Source: Adineta ricciae
Lineage: Eukaryota; Rotifera; Eurotatoria; Adinetida; Adinetidae
DNA length: 64,000 nucleotides
Assembly (NCBI GenBank): GCA_905250025.1
Contig: CAJNOJ010000232.1
Location: forward strand, 1-64,000
Direction: 5' to 3'
Shown here: positions 14,063 through 26,284 of the stretch, in pieces
Layout: the number at the start of each line of letters is the position of its first letter
Position numbering within the stretch: the stretch's first letter is position 1
Position numbers and translations under genes: made by a program
Notes under the pieces: generated by a model
Seen by the model: the letters and a program-made list of their open reading frames with translations, nothing else
Database searches by the model: none
Told to the model about the DNA's origin: nothing

Positions 14063-17000
14063 ATGTCAGCCAATATCAGTACAAGATCGTTAAGACAACA
14101 TGTTCAGCGTTCATTAGGTGATGATTTCATCGAACCACCCTCCGTCATGTCTGCAGTAGGGAACGATGACGATGATGACGACGGAACGGAAGATTTTCAT
14201 CCTCGAGGCACAACATCAAAAACACGGTCGCGTGGTGGTGGAAGACAATCACGTGGAGGACGCAAAGGTGGCTCGAATATTAATCAAACGGACGATGATT
14301 TAATGGAAACAAGTTCAGTTAGTACGATGACAGGACGGCATACAAGTTATGGCGATCATCAATCGGAAGAAAAAGGATACTTTCATCATTTATTAACTGG
14401 GAAAACGAATATACAAGTCCTAGTTGATCAATGGATCGATTCATATCAAGCGAATCGCGATGAAGCATTAATTGAACTGATGCAATTTTTCTTGGATTCC
14501 AGTGGTTGTAAAGGAAAGTTAACACAGACAATGTACTTGAAAATGGAGCATGTCGACATGTTACGCGCAATGACCGAGCATTTCGATGAGGTAAGCATTG
14601 GACCATAAGCGTTCATTTCACCGAGATTTCGACTGATTTCGATTACTAAGATCGAATACAGATAGTTTCACTGATGTTAGATTCTCTGTGGTGGTCTTTT
14701 TTGTCGACAGCAATGAATGAATAGTTTTACTGAAGATAATCTATCGTGGAAGTGTCTATTGTTGAATCTACCACGAGTATTGTATCATTTGTTCGTACAT
14801 AGTGCACATAAGTTTCATTACTGTAGCGTTTTTCACACTCAGCAATCAGTCAAACATAGCATGTTAACTGATTAACATAATATAAATTATTAATACTGTG
14901 GAAAATAGTTGTAGTTATTTACGCGTTAGTGTATACCTATATATTTTGCTACAACAGAGAAAAGTAAATTCAATTTTTTAATTTATATTTTCTATTAGGA
15001 TACATCGGAATATCCGATAATTATGTCTGGTTTACAATATAAAAAATTTCGTACGTCATTCAGTGAATTCGTTGTATTATTAATAAAACAATCATCCTAC
15101 TCAATTATATACGATCAATACATGATTGATAACTTGGTTACGTTATTAACTGCTCTGTCCGATTCGCCTGTACGTGCTTTTCGTCATACAGGAACTTTAG
15201 CAGGTGAGAAACAATATTGACCGAGAGAAACAATTGCTTATCTGGTTTGGTTTTAGTCTTGAAAGTAATGACAGCACTTGTCGACATTGCATTAACGATT
15301 AGCATTCAAAAAGATCAGTGTCAAAGACAATATGAAGCTGAACGACAAAAATCCAGCGCACGACGAGCTGCTGATCGACTCGATACGTTAACAGCAAAAC
15401 GAAAAGAGGTTTGATGATTCGAATATATCGATTGAATTTACCCGAATGTTTTAGCTCGAAGGAAATGAAAACGAAATCAAGAGTTTTATGAATTTCATCT
15501 TCAAAGGTGTTTTCATTCATCGCTATCGGTATGAGTTCATTTTTCTCAAATATCATCTTGTGATCAAGCATTTCTTTTAAACAGAGATGTCGTACCGGAT
15601 ATTCGTTGCTTATGCATCAGTGAACTGGGTGAATGGATGAAAAGCTATCCGATGGTTTTTCTTGATGATATTTATCTTAAGTATATCGGTTGGACTCTCT
15701 ATGATAAAGTAAGAGAGAAGAAAGCCGATTTAGTTTGTTTTATGAGCAGTTTTCATGTTTAGGTTGGTGATTGTCGATTACGCTGCTTACTTGCATTAAT
15801 ACCTTTATTTCAAACGACAGATCTTGTTGGCAAACTCGAACTATTCACCAACCGATTCAAAGTAAAGAAATATTCTAAGTATATTTGATGGATTGTGTAT
15901 ATCTTGCTATAGGATCGGATTGTGCAAATGACTGTTGATTGCGAATATGAAGTAGCAGTGCAAGCAATCAAACTTTTAACCGCAATCTTAAAGTATGATT
16001 CGCAGAAGAAGAGAATAAATAGACATGTTTGATTTATCATTCGTATAGATTCAATGATCGAATATTAGAAGATAAAGACTGTGAGAATATATATGAACTT
16101 GTGTACCATTCCCATCGACAAATCTCGCAAGCGGCTGGAGAGTTTCTCAATCAAAAACTATTCCATAAAGCAGAACAACCATCAAATCCATCGAAAAAAC
16201 GCAGTCAAAATACTGCTTATATGCATTTACTTGTCCAATTCTTTATCGAAAGTGAAGTAAGTACCGTTGCAACCAACTTAGAGATGATTTTATACATCTG
16301 AGGATACATCTTTCTAGCTTCATGAACACGCCACGTATCTAGTTGATTCGATGTGGGATCAACATCCTATGATGAAAGATTGGGAGTGTATGACTGATAT
16401 CTTACTCGAGGCACCTGAACAAGACGAAGATCGTACGTGTTGTGTACTTTCAAGTTCATATCTTTCTAGAATTAATTTCATCATTTAGCTCTTGACGATC
16501 AACATGAAAACTGTTTGATTGAAATCATGGTTTGTTGTGTACGTGAAGCAGCAACTGGAGAATATCCAATTGGTCGTGGACAACCAAATCGAAAAGTGCC
16601 GCGAAAACAGTTGATTTTTTTGCTGAATGCTTTACTTTCATTTGTTTCAGTTGACAATGAAAGAACAGAAACAAAAGGAAGATGATAAGAAACTCTTGAC
16701 CGATCATTTTATCGGTGCTTTACCACCATTATTGAATAAAGTGAGTTTTTCCTCTTACATATGCATAAGACTTTTCGTCTGTTCAACGTGCGAATGTTTA
16801 GTATATTGCCGATGCGGATAAATTATTGAATTTATTGCAAATTCCACTTCATTTCAATTATGAAGTATATACAACGACACGACGTGAACGTGATCTCGAT
16901 GCTTATTTGAACGCCCTGAGTGACATTGTTCAGCGTCACACAACAGCTGAAGTGCGTTTAATTAAATTTTTCGAAATCACATTTCCATCTCTATCATTCG

Positions 17001-19017
17001 AGTAGGTTTTCGATGCTGTTTCGAAATGCTTTGAATGCGTATGCGACGTTAGTTTCACGCTATCCAATCGAGCCATTGCTCATCGTGGAAATATTATTGA
17101 TAAAATAATTGCTAATTTCAATGCTGCTATGGGTATCTTCGAAGAGATGGTAGGTTGTTAATGACGACATTGTTCATATTGTCTTGTTGGACATTTGTAG
17201 GACGAAGCAGATGAAGATGATTTATATCCGTTACTACTCAATTTAAGAAAATTAGACGCTTTCCATCAGTGAGATTGATTACTTTTCCTTTTTGGACAAG
17301 ATTTTAAAATTTTATTTTGTTACAGATGCCACGATTTAGGTAACGTTGATTTATGGGATAAAATACACTTGTTATTCAAGGCAGCAATCGATAATGAAGA
17401 CATGTCACCCGAGGTTCGTCTACTCAAAACGAATTCTATCGAAGCATACATTTTGCTTTTCTAGATCGTCGAAAAATGCTTTGGTATTGCTAATCGTAGT
17501 TTACTTTGGGGATTACATCAGTTAGATCTGCAGTTCGACAAGGTAAATACGCTATATGTTTTCTTTAGTAGTAGAATTGATTGAAAACACTCATATGTAT
17601 CGAGCATACTGTGAAACAGTCGTTTCTTATCAATAAAGTCAAATGTAATTTCGCGAGTTGTCTCAGGTGCTATTTATTGAAAACCCTAGTTTTATTCTTT
17701 CACTGTAATTTAGGATTTACTGAAAAAAATTGTCAAACGAAGCCGTAAATTGTGTACATTATGTCAAAAATTGATGTTACATGCCAATGCTCAAATATGT
17801 CAATATGCGTATTCAACATTGTGCGACTTGTTAATCAGTATGAGTCCGCATTTAGTGGATAAAAATCCTGATTATCAAGTTCTCGTCGTTGAAATTAATG
17901 AGAATCTTATTCAATCATTATTAACATTTTTAAACACCTATGTGTTCTTTGCTGAAGATCCCAAAAGTGAGTAAAGTGGCATTCATTATCAATATACAAT
18001 CGATTATTTACCTATAGATCAAGATGAGCAAGCAAAAATTGAAACACTTCATAAAAAGCGTAATCTTCTTGCTGCTTATTGCAAATTAATTGTGCACAAT
18101 GTATTACCAATTCAAGCAGCAACTAATATCCTCAAATATTACGTTAAAGTAATCATCTAGACAGAATTTCGAATCTGTTTATTTATGTCTTCTATTTGTC
18201 ATTCCAGTATAGCAATGATTTTGGCGATATTATCAAAAATACTTTTACACGAGCGCGAGATATATCGAAAATTCATACAGCTAAAACAATGGCTTATAGT
18301 CTCATGGCTGTATTTAAAGATTGTATGGCTTCTCGCGACACCACACAGTCTGGTAGCAGTGAAGACACAGCTAATGTTGATCTATCACCACTAAGAGTAA
18401 TTGAAATTTAATGAATAATCATGTAAAAAGCATTGTTTCCTTATAGGAACTGGCTCGTCGTTTTAACTTATCCTTTGGATTGGATATGTCTAAACAAAGA
18501 GAGGCACTGGCTGCTCTCCATCGGTATTTCTATCGTATTTGTATTTTCTTCTTGTGAACATCTATTTTGGAAATTTAGTGAATGTATCCGTTTTGCTTTG
18601 ACACCATTGTTTAATCATGATGATCCAACACAACCGGGACCAAATATACTCTTTCTTGAAGTATTACCTGAATTTGCTTCAAAACTGCTTAAACCGGATA
18701 AAAAAGCAATGTTTGTACTTTCTGAAATTTAACGACACTATTTCTTTTTCGTGTTTGTGCATTGTAGTTTTGATCACATTGATAAACTTGTACATAGTGC
18801 AACGCTTGAAAGTGATGCATGGCAACCACTACTGAACTATCGTCGTATTCTCAACGATGAGCCAGGCGCTGGTCATAGTGTTAAGGCACGAGCATCGACT
18901 GGTACTCGCGGTCGTAAACGTGCAATGCCACAAGACGGTAATGAATCATTTATCGCGTTTCAGAAAAGAACTAAGAGTGTTTTCTTTTTCTTTCTAGATG
19001 ATAATTCTCGATTGTGA
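14063..19017 (+). CDS. STAG: Cohesin subunit SA/STAG (Scc3, stromalin)
   Basis: This is the HEAT-repeat subunit of cohesin, which binds the kleisin and DNA and holds sister chromatids together in the nucleus. It is a long many-exon gene; all introns are about 50-70 nt except those at 14591-14998 and about 17545-17714. The N-terminus is disordered, with an acidic run of Asp and Arg/Gly repeats ([15 protein letters not shown]). The STAG fold begins around [20 protein letters not shown]. The stromalin-conserved domain is clear: [32 protein letters not shown] and [17 protein letters not shown]. The C-terminus is basic and then short (DDNSRL), without the long tail of vertebrate STAG1/2. The ATG at 14063 is the first in frame; an upstream GTG at 14036 is not needed. 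Its spacing after stonin suggests possible co-transcription. Confidence 0.93.
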
Positions 19018-19249: not shown

Positions 19250-20192
19250 ATGGCAACTGGAGATGATATGATCGAGTTCACGATAAAGAATAATATGGTG
19301 TCAAGTGAAGCAATACGTCGTTTCAAACGAAACATTCCGATTCACGAACTAAAAGTATTATCTACAGCGTTGAATTCGATAGAACACCTATTTTCCTCTG
19401 TAGAATCAACTAGAACTGATTACAGGCGCCCAAAGTCAATCGATGAAAGTTCATGTTCATGACGAACGTGGTACAAAATTATTTGACATTGATGATGATT
19501 CGCGTACTCTAGGTTCCTATAATGTTCAATCGAAAATGATTCTACAAGTTGAAGAAACAAACTTGAAACGTGCGCATATGTTTGATGATACAGGTGACGT
19601 ACCGAAATATGAATTAACCAATGAAGAATATGAATCGAGAAAGAATACAGCCAGACAATTCATGCAAGAACATAAGATAGGAAAATACAATCCAACAGCT
19701 CAAGAGGAACATACGCGAAAAGAAAAAGAAAAAGAAGCACATGAACAAGAAGCAGCCAGTAAAATAAATATCAATGATCGGTGAGTCGAGATAGTCTAGA
19801 AAATGAATTTGTCTTATTGTACTGTTGACTCATAGATGTGAAGTGTCGGTTATTTCCCAACCAACAAAACGAGGAACCGTGATGTTTAAAGGTGAGCAAC
19901 GAACAACCTTTTCCCTAAAAACAATTTGTCTACAATGCAAAAATGTTACAATATTTAGGTGAAGTACATTTTAAGCCGGGAGTTTGGGTTGGAATCCGAT
20001 ATGATGAACCATTAGGCAAGAATAATGGATCGTGAGTTCGTTCGTGACGAAACGAATTTGAGAGAGTCTGATTTTTGTTTTAGTGTTGAAGGTAAAAAGT
20101 ATTTCGAATGTCCTGACAAATACGGAGCATTTGTTCGGCCAAGCGCAGTTACAGTTGGTGACTTTCCTGAAGTTGATCTAGAAGAATTATAA
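19250..20192 (+). CDS. TBCB: Tubulin-folding cofactor B
   Basis: TBCB binds alpha-tubulin released from the chaperonin and, with TBCE, helps build or take apart the tubulin dimer in the cytoplasm. Five exons (19250-19354, 19404-19780, 19836-19891, 19959-20031, 20084-20192) sum to 720 nt, giving 239 residues, close to the 244 of human TBCB. The N-terminal ubiquitin-like domain includes [18 protein letters not shown] and [13 protein letters not shown] charged helix follows ([14 protein letters not shown]), then the CAP-Gly domain ([20 protein letters not shown]). The CAP-Gly signature reads GKNNG where GKNDG is usual, and the protein ends EVDLEEL. The ATG has a good context (AACCATGG). Exon 2 starts at 19404 because only that acceptor keeps the frame and restores the family motif. 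Confidence 0.93.
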
Positions 20193-20722: not shown

Positions 20723-21559
20723 ATGCATACAGCATGGAAAAATCGTCTTCAAGAGTATTGTCAAAAACAGAAGATTTCTTTGCCCAGTTATCGAATCCAA
20801 AACCAATCCGGTCCACCGCATAATCAAAGATTTAAGGTATTTATAGAATTGCAGATCAGATTTATGTCAAATTTACTATCACCGAATGTCTTACAGTCTG
20901 TTGTACGATTCTACCTTCTAATTACTACAGCGTGTACTAGAAATAACATTTCAAACAATTGAATCTTTTTGATCACAATCGATTTTTATTGTTTTACTGA
21001 TTTCATTATCCTTTGTCAGGTTGAGGTCGAAGTGAATAACCAGTCTTATACTAGTGTTGGTGATTGTCTTTCAAAAAAAGAAGCCGAACAATGTGCTGCT
21101 AAAGTAGCTTGGGAAGATCTTACAGCCAGGGCTCCTGAAATTATTCCTCAAGGAGAACCCGATCCAACCCCTTCGTATGAGCAAGCAATAGATAATGCGG
21201 TGAAAAATCATTTACCTGAGGAATATACTAGTGTCGAAGAATATATCGAAACTATGGTCAAATCGAACGGTGGGCATATTCGTAAAATATCACCACCGAA
21301 TGCTTACGGGGAATACAAATTCGAAATTAGCGGTTCATATCGAGATTGTGAAAATGTTGGAAGGCCTCATAGGAAAAATCAAATTTATTTCATCGTTGAT
21401 CCTACTAAAAGAACTTATTGGCAAAGATGTCATGATCCTGACTGTTCTAAATTCAAGTCAGCTGTCAAGAACATTCCCAATGAATACATAATATGTACGA
21501 ACACGCAACACGAGTGCGACACAACGACGTCCACATTGTCAAACCGAGCTATCGAGTGA
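20723..21559 (+). CDS. dsRNA-binding domain fused to PrimPol/UL52-type zinc finger
   Basis: Two exons (20723-20836, 21020-21559) sum to 654 nt, giving 217 residues. Residues about 1-75 are a double-stranded RNA-binding domain: WKNRLQEYCQKQKISLPSY, then the beta strands across the splice (RFKVEVEVNN), then a helix with KKEAEQCAAKVAWEDL. Residues about 125-190 look like the C-terminal zinc finger of PrimPol: YRDCENVGRPHRKNQIYFIV followed by WQRCHDPDCSKFKS. The expected ligands (Cys, His, Cys, Cys) are all present. The catalytic archaeo-eukaryotic primase domain that normally precedes this finger is absent. A Thr/Ser-rich tail follows. I infer a nucleic-acid-binding protein that could combine dsRNA recognition with the single-strand contact proposed for such fingers. 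The start is the ATG just ahead of the dsRBD. Confidence 0.8.
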
Positions 21560-23744
21560 GAAAGTCGTGGAAAATCTATAAGACGCTATCGTATCAATCA
21601 TGTGTTTTAAAATTTTGATTGTTATGTCTAATACCTCAGCTTAACTTAACGTCTTGACAATCGTCGTCATTTTTATAAAATAAAATTTTTGACGAAAAAA
21701 GCTGCAAATGTTTATTTGGTTTTTCGATCGGCAACCAAAAGAAATCATTAACGAATATAAGAAAAAGTAACAGATCAATCAAGGATATAGATAACGATGA
21801 AAATATCAATTAATAAACACCCTTGTCTAGAGGATATGAAAACCTTCAAGTTACAACCAACATCATCAATAACAAACCAACGCCCGCTTCTTGTCTCGTC
21901 AGTGAGTTTCGAAAATCATTTTAACTAAGCGTAATAAACAAGTTTCATGGTTATTTATCCAGAAGTCAATTCTTTCAACACTTCATTACCTATTCGATAC
22001 ATCAATTATCACTTACCTAAATAAAGAACTATTATTCAGAAATTAATCATCGTTCGCTCTTCTACAGTTATTTGTAAGATGTGTCAACTGTATTCATCCA
22101 AGTTCAATGTGTATCAAAACAGTAATTAAACAAATATATTCTTATTTAAGATCACTTTAATTGTATATTTAATGTATACAGTTCATTGAATATTAAAAAA
22201 CGATTCAAAACTTCATGTAAACGTCTAGAAAAAAAAGCGAAATTTTATCCATATCTGATTGATGTGATAATTATTGCGTAACATATTATATCTTTCTTCC
22301 GTCTCTTTCTTTTTCTTGAGCAGCTTCATTTATCAATATCATTGGCCATGTACTGAAATTTTAAAAAAACTGCAATTAAAACACTTCAGAGACATATCTA
22401 AGCTATCAATAGAATCATTTTCTACTTTCTAATCTAAACAATCGATTTCGAAAGACAAACAGAACATAAAGAAATCGCTAATGACGCATGTGCAGAAAAA
22501 TCTTCCAAATCAATTATTATAACATCATGTACACTTGAAAATATGCGTTAAAATCACTTCTGGATGAATAGAATCTCCTTTTTCAGTCGTGAGTAGTACA
22601 TTTTGTCTGTATTCGCACATTTGACACATTTCGAGTTTATAGTGTTTTATTTTCTCTCGTTCTCTTTCCTCCATACTGAGTTAAAAAAGCTCGAAAGACA
22701 AGAGACGTCTATTTACTTGCCTTCTCGCATTCGTATAATACTGTACCATTTAGATCAATTGTGCTATTTACTGCTTGAAGACACTATCATCTTTAGTACT
22801 CTGAAAAATCAGTCGTATCAAATGAAAACAACCGACGGCCATGAATGAAAGGAGAAGGAGAGAGATTCTACAAAGAAATCACCGCTTTATTATTTCTTTT
22901 CATTCATACGACTTCTATTTTGATGTTGTTACATGCAACAGATGAAACGAAACAGTATCGAAACGATGTGAACGTGCTCATTATTTATATGAATAATCTA
23001 ACTTCTAAGGCTGAAAAGGTTAGCATTCTCTATCGAGAAGCACACGAAAATTTGTTTCGATGTCGATATGATAGGTACACATACCGACATATTTAAATTC
23101 ATTGAGCATATATACGTACAGAATAAATCCTTTCGTTGTCATTTTTTCTTTTTCTTTTTTTATCACCTACGATCGTATCAGATTGACTATCAGTATTCAT
23201 CCGCTCATTCTTTTCGATGTACAAATGAAGCGTGACTTGCGTAGTAGAGTGGACAACGAAATTATTACGACGTTTTGCTCTCTACACGGATGAAGAAGAG
23301 AACATTCTATCATAAATGATAATTACACACACACAAGCACATCGATGTCTTCTCTCTCTCTCTCCTTTTCTCTACTTCAATTTCACTTTGAACAAATATT
23401 CGTACGATGTAAAATTATAAAGTGTATAGTAAAGGAGAACGAATAAGTGAGATGAACAGGTAAGATAGAAAGAAAGAAATGGTTATTTTATACCAACGAT
23501 CATTTCGTTCTCACAAGTAAGAAAGGTGTATACTGAAGGATGGCAAACACTTAACCTCCTACCTCATCATGTACATCTATACATATCTGTGAACATGAGA
23601 TCTTCTGTGTCTTATGAATGTGTTTCTTTTCATTTAACTATCAGACCTTGTAAAAATCACATACAGACACATTCCAAGGATGATCATATCAAATAAATTG
23701 TACAAGATTGAGTACAATTTCATTCTGATTTATTTTAGTATCAG
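21560..23744. other. Long intergenic region
   Basis: About 2.2 kb of AT-rich sequence with only short open frames of low complexity. It contains ACACACACAAGCAC near 23325 and a CT run near 23350. No transposon ends or RNA gene are recognised. Confidence 0.45.
23730..23738 (+). promoter_or_regulatory. Candidate acceptor before RING gene start
   Basis: TTATTTTAG ends at 23738, six nt before the ATG at 23745, again suggesting trans-splicing or a 5'-UTR intron. Confidence 0.35.
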
Positions 23745-26284
23745 ATGGCAGCCGCAATACCTCGACATCTTCTCGAAACGCTTGTCAATTGTCCAGCTTG
23801 TTCACAACGTTACACCGAGCCCCGAGTTCTTCCAACATGCGGACATACTGTGTGTAAGTAAACATTGGAAAAAAACTACTAATCTTCGCTATTCATGCAT
23901 GAAATTAGGTGTGACATGTCTTGAAAACGAATGGAATGCTGAAGAATCAACATTAACAAGTAATGGCAACCATGATAAAACAGCTCACTATTGTCCTGTA
24001 CCGAATTGCCGAAAAGAAATTTGTTCAACAATAAAGAACTACGCAGATTTACCTATAAATCAAACTGTTCTCGATCTAGTTGAATCATGTAATTTTCACG
24101 TTGAAGCAACTGGGCAATGCCAAGTTTGTAATCAATCACCATCGTTCGTTAAATGCTCGCATTGCTGTTCATTTGTTTGTTTTGAATGTGCAAATCAACA
24201 TCGACGTGAGGCATTAACGACATTGACAAATAATATTAACACTCTTGAACAAGAATATTTGAATATGAATGATCAAATCGATCACGCAAGACATCATGTT
24301 ATTGAGATCAAGCAGAAATCAATCGAAGCTATTCGTCTTTATTATACACGTTTAATAGATGAATTGCGTTGTGCACAGTTAACAAATGAGGATATTGTCG
24401 AACGACAAGCGATTATATGTCAAAATGAACTCGAATTGCTCATCGACGAACATAAACAACGTTGTGAACAAATAAACAAGACAATTCAAGATCTACGAAC
24501 AACGATTACAGATTGGTCAACGATTGAACAATTTAAACAATTACAAATGAAATTGACACATATTCAAGAAGATATACGCGAAGCTAGTGAAATCTTTCAG
24601 GAGCGTATACCAGAAATGAAACTATTCGAATTCGATAATATTGAACTTAAAAAGAAAGTTTATGACAAGAATCTCGATTCCTTCTCACAAGTAGATGAAC
24701 TAGTTGCAAATACTTGCAAACAAAATTCGATGGCTTCAAGTAGAACAACACAACAACAGCAGCAGCACCTCGATGGTATGTTATGCTTTCTTTTGTGTCT
24801 GGTCATTTTCTATTTCTAATTAAATATATACACATACATGCATACATATGTATAGATTCAAGTAGTACAGCTTCGTCTTCAACAAACAATGAACATCCAA
24901 AAGCTTCGATATCTACCAATGATCGAGCAATAAAAAAGCATTCCAATGGTCAAGGAAATACCTATAAGACTGTGAATTCTGCTGGCCACCAGCAAGTGCT
25001 ACCAAACATTATCGATGATACAACTGTTCATCCAGTATCAGACCAAGCACTCGCTCCACCAACAACATCATCTTCGCATATTCCTACGCATCATCATGTT
25101 CACCGTTCTCATCCATCCTCAACCGGTAGTCTGTTGCCGAAAACCGTCTCCAGTTCGATGGCTGACCTATCTCTATCGTCGCATAGTCATAAAATGACAA
25201 CTGCGTCTACTCGTTCATCGACGTTTCAATCGAAATTAGATAATTGTAGTCTTGAATCTTATAAGAAGATTCCTTTATCGCAAAGTTTCGATTGGGGAAT
25301 GTTAGCAGTTACAAATACCGATTTAATATTACTTTATAATAAAGATAAAACGTCATTAGTTATATTCGATGCTAGTGGACATGAGAATGAAGTAAGTGAC
25401 AATGAAATCTTCTCTTTTTAGCAAGAAATTCTGCTTTCCTGTCTTTAGAGAATTCAATGGTCAGATGGTGATATAAAAGATTTATGTATTTATCATGATG
25501 ATAGTATAATTATAGTTGGTGAACATAAACAAGCATCAAAGCCTATCGAATGTAAATTATATGTGTGTAATTTATCACGAAAACAGCTCGAACGTGAACG
25601 TGTCGTTGAACGTGGTCTTAATTGTCAACGTGTTGCGTCAGATACACAGTTTATTTTCTATGCATCAGAAAAAGGGTGTAATAAATCAAAAATTTCGGTC
25701 TTTGATCACGAATTACAATTACAAGTAACATTCGAATCGGGAGTGGAGGTGAGAAGCATCGTGACGGATTCGCAATGCTGTTATATATTGGGCAAACGAC
25801 GAGAACGAGAACCGGCAAGATATTTTCTAGAAAAACGACAAAAAAATGGTGAGATCAAGTTTAATCACAATCTAAACTAGTATTGCCGAATCTTTTTCTC
25901 CCGTTAAAATAGGTCAACTTGTCCGTCGTATTGATCTATATGAAATCAATGTTGATAATATGAATCGATTAATTCAGGATCCCATCAGTCATGGTGTAAT
26001 CGTGACAGATGGAGGAAATAAAAAAATCTGGGCTGTTGGGCCAGAAGGTGAAAAGAAAGCAGTTCAATACCGACCATGGCGTAAGAAGGCTCTTCATCTC
26101 CTTTGTCCGTTCCTTTTCTATATTCTTTTTTTTATTACTAGCATGGAGCGTGGGATTTTTAACAACGGATACTTTACTTATCCTTCACGCTGGCTGTTTA
26201 ACTTTCCATGCCGTTAATCACAATAAACAATTGAATAATGGAACAAAACTACGAAGTATAATAACAAATACGGAAAAACTTTGA
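23745..26284 (+). CDS. TRIM-like RING/B-box/coiled-coil protein
   Basis: A probable E3 ubiquitin ligase. Six exons (23745-23853, 23909-24775, 24856-25391, 25449-25848, 25913-26080, 26142-26284) sum to 2223 nt, giving 740 residues. RING at residues about 16-75: CPACSQRYTEPRVLPTCGHT, VCVTCLENE and CPVPNC. A B-box-like Cys/His region follows (CQVCNQSPSFVKC, CSFVCFECANQHR), then a long coiled coil (residues about 130-300) and a Ser/His-rich linker. The C-terminal third has repeated beta-rich blocks (GMLAVTNTDLILLYN, DLCIYHDDSIIIVGE, SIVTDSQCCYILGK, HGVIVTDGGNKKIWAVG) suggesting a propeller of NHL or WD type. The start codon lies in another frame from the obvious long reading frame; the 55-nt first intron restores the second half of the RING. 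The substrate is unknown. Confidence 0.8.

Follow-up and report, generated by a model that had tools for sequence, protein, structure and literature searches.

A dsRNA-binding domain paired with a PrimPol/UL52-type zinc finger in a small predicted protein of the rotifer Adineta ricciae

A short gene of the rotifer Adineta ricciae raises the question of what a protein might do that joins a dsRNA-binding domain (dsRBD) to a zinc finger of the type found in PrimPol and UL52 primases. The gene was studied within a window of 64,000 nucleotides, this being the whole stretch of DNA analyzed, and was compared with the rest of a genome assembly of 130 Mb in 1033 contigs. The positions of the gene, its parts and its relatives are collected in Table 1.

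Table 1 Positions of the dsRBD-finger gene, its parts and related genes (window numbering unless a contig is named)
Feature	Position	Strand	Remarks
Gene locus	G000:C232:1-64000 window, exons 20723-20836 + 21020-21559	+	217 residues after splicing
Exon 1	20723..20836	+	38 codons; start codon and first half of the dsRBD, including the GPPH loop
Intron	20837..21019	+	phase 0, 183 bases; GT at 20837, AG ends at 21019
Exon 2	21020..21559	+	rest of the dsRBD, followed by the linker and the complete PrimPol-type finger module; ends with the stop codon
dsRBD	20735..21121	+	residues 5-72, intron inside; Pfam PF00035
Finger module with pre-finger segment	21206..21466	+	residues about 101-187; from tblastn and profile comparison
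UL52/PrimPol-type zinc finger	21332..21466	+	residues 143-187; Pfam PF03121; ligands C148, H155, C175, C180
R146 codon	21341..21343	+	position of human PrimPol Arg417
R153 codon	21362..21364	+	position of human PrimPol Arg424
AATAAA, candidate poly(A) signal	21679..21684	+	120 bases past the stop codon
Second gene	C85:272351-271739	-	67-base phase-0 intron at the same place as in the window gene; 181 residues
dsRBD-only genes	C245:91435-91572 and C264:98985-99122		close pair

The first-pass annotation, made from the letters of the window, had predicted a 217-residue protein interrupted by one intron, and the model was borne out, with both splice boundaries where they had been placed, GT and AG at the intron ends and phase 0. 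Upstream of the start codon, back to the preceding stop, no other in-frame ATG was found. The annotation had also described an N-terminal dsRBD and a PrimPol/UL52-type finger in the C-terminal half, and profile searches agree on both. The Pfam model dsrm matches the former with an E-value of 5.6e-19 (68.9 bits against a cut-off of 23; profile positions 1-66 of 66), and Herpes_UL52 matches the latter with an E-value of 1.3e-7 (31.8 bits against a cut-off of 21). The two domains are paired in the window protein. This pairing is independent of the splice, because residues 39-217, from the middle of the dsRBD to the C-terminus and including the KK of the dsRBD, form one uninterrupted frame that takes in the entire finger as well as half of the dsRBD. 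The objection that the two exons belong to different transcripts is weakened for the same reason, and also because the same phase-0 intron is present in three further genes.

The residues by which dsRBDs contact dsRNA are a GPxH loop and a KK at the start of helix 2. In the window dsRBD, GPPH begins at residue 30 and KKEAE at residue 57, and from the domain and these contact motifs it is predicted to bind dsRNA. It is the single dsRBD stretch that Pfam detects in the protein; DND1_DSRM overlaps it above its own cut-off, and the NCBIfam models of RNase III (residues 4-71) and of a seadornavirus dsRNA-binding family (residues 9-73) were both far below their cut-offs. Solved sequences that match this dsRBD at E ≤ 0.01 number 54, with DRB4 as the best (E 1.6e-16, summed over its two dsRBDs), ADAR second, PKR third, and DRB3, HYL1 (two records) and DRB2 in ranks 4-7. 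The dsRBD of the second gene, on contig C85, has four solved-sequence matches at E ≤ 1e-5, all of them plant DRBs; F21M12.9, among the matches of that copy, is taken here to be HYL1. The plant DRB class has been described as Dicer cofactors in small-RNA biogenesis (PMC4351826). The DRB-like dsRBDs of the window and C85 copies are a possible sign of horizontal transfer; a plant origin is only a lead, since the PDB is a poor sample and the animal proteins ADAR and PKR stand so high in the ranking.

Two further genes, on contigs C245 and C264, encode a dsRBD only. Their products of 115 residues differ from each other at 9 positions, and the C245 protein matches dsrm with an E-value of 7.1e-19. 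Because both share the position and the phase of the intron with the window gene, the window dsRBD is, judging from gene structure and domain, a member of a small family in this genome. The finger would then have been either added to a dsRBD or lost from the C245 and C264 genes.

As for the finger itself, all four expected zinc ligands had been reported as kept, and they are indeed intact, with spacings of 7, 20 and 5 residues that equal those of the zinc ligands C419, H426, C446 and C451 described for human PrimPol (PMC4027207). Across the six reading frames of the window this exact four-ligand pattern is present once, and none of 100 mononucleotide shuffles of the 64 kb produced it; the finger match exceeds chance. 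A search of the whole genome (130 Mb) for UL52 gave four matches at E ≤ 0.001 from 8 candidates, namely the window gene, the C85 copy, a PrimPol on C126 and an element-like primase on C473. The Pfam model pPIWI_RE_Z remained below its cut-off in the window protein. Among solved sequences, the alignment of the finger found 0 matches at E ≤ 10, and exon 2 alone found three, all with an E-value of 0.78 or worse. Structure prediction with AlphaFold gave a mean pLDDT of 45.9 for exon 2 alone and of 60.8, with a pTM of 0.45, for the finger module alone (window 21209-21499), and the latter model has the predicted order helix, two strands, short helix, two strands, helix. Foldseek returned 425 PDB and 654 viral-library matches to this model at E ≤ 10 and none at E ≤ 0.001; rank 4 in the viral library went to a medusavirus protein whose name refers to an AEP (primase) domain (E 0.18, 65 columns). 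These predictions speak neither for nor against the explanation preferred below.

When the genome was searched by tblastn with the window protein, 16 matches were obtained from 15 candidates, the best one outside the gene itself being that on C85 (46% over residues 38-192). The protein encoded there has both domains (dsrm, E 1.3e-14; Herpes_UL52, E 1.7e-9) and is 48% identical to the window protein overall; 37 residues follow the last zinc ligand in the window protein and 13 in the C85 copy. The neighbors on both sides are collinear when window positions 10000-40000 are set against 9.5 kb around the C85 copy. In the left neighbor (14999-19014), 17 of the 18 plus-strand frame matches have 57-98% identity and one has 41%, so that most of this neighbor is more conserved than the dsRBD-finger protein; the frame matches in the right neighbor (23638-26281) have 49-82% identity. 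Because both domains, the intron and the collinear neighbors recur at C85, the two genes are, on the comparison of the two regions, copies in a duplicated block, and the pairing is older than the duplication and has been kept since. A block of this kind is as expected for bdelloid rotifers, since these have been described as tetraploid (PMC7943196).

The dsRBD-finger gene is apparently under purifying selection, the NG86 comparison of the two copies over 177 codons giving dN 0.455, dS 1.54 (near saturation) and dN/dS of about 0.30; the share of differences is highest at third codon positions, with 0.53, the other two having 0.38 and 0.30. These data bear on the possibility that the finger is a decaying piece of a PrimPol gene, fused by chance to a dsRBD gene and functionless. 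Since the genome has PrimPol genes at other places, a partial copy could be imagined; the existence of two diverged copies (48%), both open, with the same intron and ligands and with most differences at third positions, makes this very improbable. Between the left neighbor and the dsRBD-finger gene, the window holds a gene with a ubiquitin-like domain at 19404-20192 (Pfam Ubiquitin_2, E 3e-11), presumably that of tubulin-folding cofactor B, and the frames of this gene had no match in the C85 block.

The primase catalytic domain had been noted as missing. Pfam found none in the window protein, and tblastn at E ≤ 1 found no primase match in the window or in the 9.5 kb around the C85 copy, the queries being four frames: two from the catalytic region of PrimPols, one on C40 and one on C146, and two primase-like ones, each from a different element locus, with the remaining PrimPol exons left out. 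The genome has PrimPol genes on C40, where one frame matches the solved catalytic domain of human PrimPol weakly (E 6.6e-4), and, as a close pair (89% identical in one 167-residue frame) that are possibly alleles, on C126 and C146. Hence the window gene is not a substitute for a lost PrimPol. As judged from the translations, an intron interrupts the finger of the host PrimPol genes, unlike that of the window gene.

Over 57 columns, the window finger and a host PrimPol finger are 47% identical (hhalign probability 99.2). Together with the pre-finger segment, the window finger aligns to element primases at 33% over 81 columns with a single one-residue gap, and tblastn matches to these primases cover residues 106-194 (C473) and 101-187 (C298). 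A donor of the finger could not be named on this basis: the host PrimPol is nearer, yet the alignment extends across the pre-finger segment in the element primases alone. The element-like loci are found at C298:55000-63500, C514:1-9000 and C473:1-6000, and each has a UL52-type finger frame, above the Pfam cut-off only in C473, beside another frame that, in our view, resembles a primase. The primase-like frame of C514 had no significant match when tested in Pfam. The C473 locus continues with frames that look to us helicase-like, one of which was tested and had no significant Pfam match. At C298, the primase-like frame has a MULE transposase domain (E 1e-15) about 1 kb away.

The presence of three loci with element-like primases and the same kind of finger, together with the nearly gapless alignment of finger and pre-finger segment, would suit a dominant-negative protein or decoy against the primases of mobile or viral elements, in which a free finger would occupy the primer end or the primase partner and block replication. 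Such a role is considered quite improbable. Human PrimPol reportedly initiates synthesis in cis, the two domains belonging to the same molecule (PMC10415149), so that a separate finger could hardly take the place of the natural one, and the role of the dsRBD is left unexplained.

More can be said from what has been reported on the human finger. In the same study, the change R417A or R424A in human PrimPol raised the KD for a 5'-triphosphate DNA duplex from 0.49 μM to above 10 μM, and a duplex without the triphosphate was not efficiently bound; the measurements concern DNA duplexes and the finger within the full enzyme, and Arg424 may be structural according to its authors (PMC10415149). Relative to the first Cys, the two arginines are at -2 and +5. 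Arg occupies both positions in the window protein (R146 and R153) and in the C85 copy, a mapping that rests on the identical ligand spacing and not on an alignment with the human sequence. Two host PrimPols were compared, and both have Arg at +5; at -2, that on C146 has Arg and that on C40 (C40:245225-245431) has Lys. The three element primases compared have Arg at -2 in every case and at +5 in one case. As the arginines are present in most of the fingers compared, they may reflect family inheritance and not retained function. At +28, the position of human His447, the window copy has His and the C85 copy Tyr, and at the position of human Met432, both have Tyr.

The explanation preferred here, which is put forward tentatively, is that the window protein is a two-handed reader of 5'-triphosphorylated dsRNA ends and probably a cofactor of RNAi for RdRP products. 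From the architecture found in the gene, we infer both the binding of the 5'-triphosphate and the role in RNAi. The dsRBD would hold an RNA duplex whose 5'-triphosphate end would be clamped by the PrimPol-type finger, in the way reported for the PrimPol finger and the 5'-triphosphate of the primer. In this way, newly made end-triphosphorylated dsRNA would be recognized, above all the products of cellular RdRPs and possibly viral dsRNA, and the bound dsRNA would be handed to Dicer or Argonaute, or kept from them. The first-pass annotation had suggested dsRNA together with primed or single-stranded nucleic acid as ligands, a guess that we would narrow to a duplex end bearing a 5'-triphosphate. 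In this best explanation, the protein may be, with the same reserve, a small host adaptor without a recognized enzyme domain.

At least 95 RdRP exon matches were obtained in the genome, spread over 28 contigs, with 75 of the 105 candidates scored. Bdelloids have on average 38.9 RdRP genes and monogononts 2.5 (PMC7943196), and the 22G-RNAs of nematodes, which are made by RdRP, carry 5'-triphosphates (PMC4323106). A role in reading 5'-triphosphates fits this genome context, because RdRPs are many and the nematode RdRP products are 5'-triphosphorylated. Several observations count against the same role. The C85 copy, which has KR at the helix 2 position, is without the GPxH loop and has Tyr at +28, and from the latter two differences it may bind less well; in addition, the Met432 position is changed to Tyr in both copies. 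The genome may also already own a 5'-triphosphate sensor, since the RIG-I C-terminal domain had two matches, C107:57845-58210 (E 8.7e-12) and C136:151175-151525 (E 2.9e-4), which are candidate RIG-I-like receptors.

The loss of the GPxH loop in the C85 copy may also be taken to favor an adaptor for protein interactions, in which the dsRBD would mainly dimerize or bind Dicer and the finger would be a structural zinc site without triphosphate binding. Zinc ligands can be kept for folding alone, and non-canonical dsRBDs have been reported to bind proteins (PMC5716075). This explanation must be called doubtful, as the GPPH loop and the KK are kept in the window copy and both copies keep the two arginines that reportedly serve phosphate binding, though Arg424 may be structural.

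A role in replication or repair has also to be weighed, in which the finger would sit on the 5'-triphosphate end of RNA/DNA primers or R-loops and the dsRBD on the hybrid, the protein acting beside PrimPol or competing with it in genome repair. The closeness of the finger to that of the host PrimPol would agree with such a role. The dsRBD, however, carries the features of a dsRNA binder, and dsRBDs usually prefer RNA:RNA duplexes over hybrids. In the human study, the ligand tested was a DNA template with a 5'-triphosphate primer, in favor of a repair factor. Against it, human PrimPol has its RPA-binding motif past the finger (PMC10415149), where the window and C85 proteins have the tails given above; on the whole, this role is judged unlikely.

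Returning to the reader of 5'-triphosphorylated ends, a stronger form of the proposal can be stated with considerable doubt: the protein would be a new, helicase-free reader of 5'-triphosphate dsRNA, with the primer-end clamp of PrimPol fused to a dsRBD of the RNAi type, and would tell RdRP-made (or viral) dsRNA from other duplexes in an animal with dozens of RdRPs. The PrimPol/UL52 finger has been studied as an accessory of primases, and here it is found beside an RNA-duplex binder in an RdRP-rich genome. If 5'-triphosphate ends are read, the recognition of primer ends would have been reused for RNA surveillance, and a single small protein with two point mutants would allow a direct test of how RdRP products are marked in such an animal.

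The first-pass annotation knew of no described family with this pairing, which agrees with the literature searched, where, partly among the matches listed, no description of a dsRBD paired with a PrimPol/UL52 finger was found. No relative with both domains was found in the viral, phage and prokaryotic collections searched. Scans of the IMG/VR viral contigs with three alignments (161 stretches with patterns of the dsRBD only, 15 and 44 with the others) gave no confirmed relative, and one genome each of 84,980 bacterial and archaeal species (104 stretches) gave none; both are weak negatives, as an exact short peptide pattern was required and there was no positive control. Among 50,697 phage records, five match, in the N-terminal part only (query residues 5-93 at most). 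Every part of the protein is a known domain, and the pairing of what would be a dsRNA-binding adaptor with a primase-type end-reading finger is new within the literature and the collections searched.

Among known systems, the plant DRB proteins (DRB4, HYL1/DRB1, DRB2 and DRB3) and the animal proteins Loquacious, TARBP2 and R2D2 are similar in being dsRBD cofactors of small-RNA pathways, and the window dsRBD is DRB-like. These DRB and Dicer-cofactor proteins have two or more dsRBDs, whereas the window protein has one dsRBD, not two or three, followed by a PrimPol-type finger. RIG-I-like receptors bind 5'-triphosphorylated dsRNA ends, a property only proposed for the window protein, and the end-reading domain of RIG-I also binds zinc; unlike them, the window protein has no RIG-I C-terminal domain or helicase detected by Pfam. 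The element-like primases of C298, C514 and C473 have the same kind of finger module and a similar pre-finger segment. They differ in that their fingers adjoin a primase-like frame (C298 and C514; partial at the contig end in C473) and that Pfam detects no dsRBD in the finger frames. In comparison with eukaryotic PrimPol, no primase domain was found in the window protein, which has an N-terminal dsRBD instead and a finger unsplit by an intron; the likeness lies in the four ligands at identical spacing, in Arg at the Arg417 and Arg424 positions and, in the window copy, in His at the His447 position.
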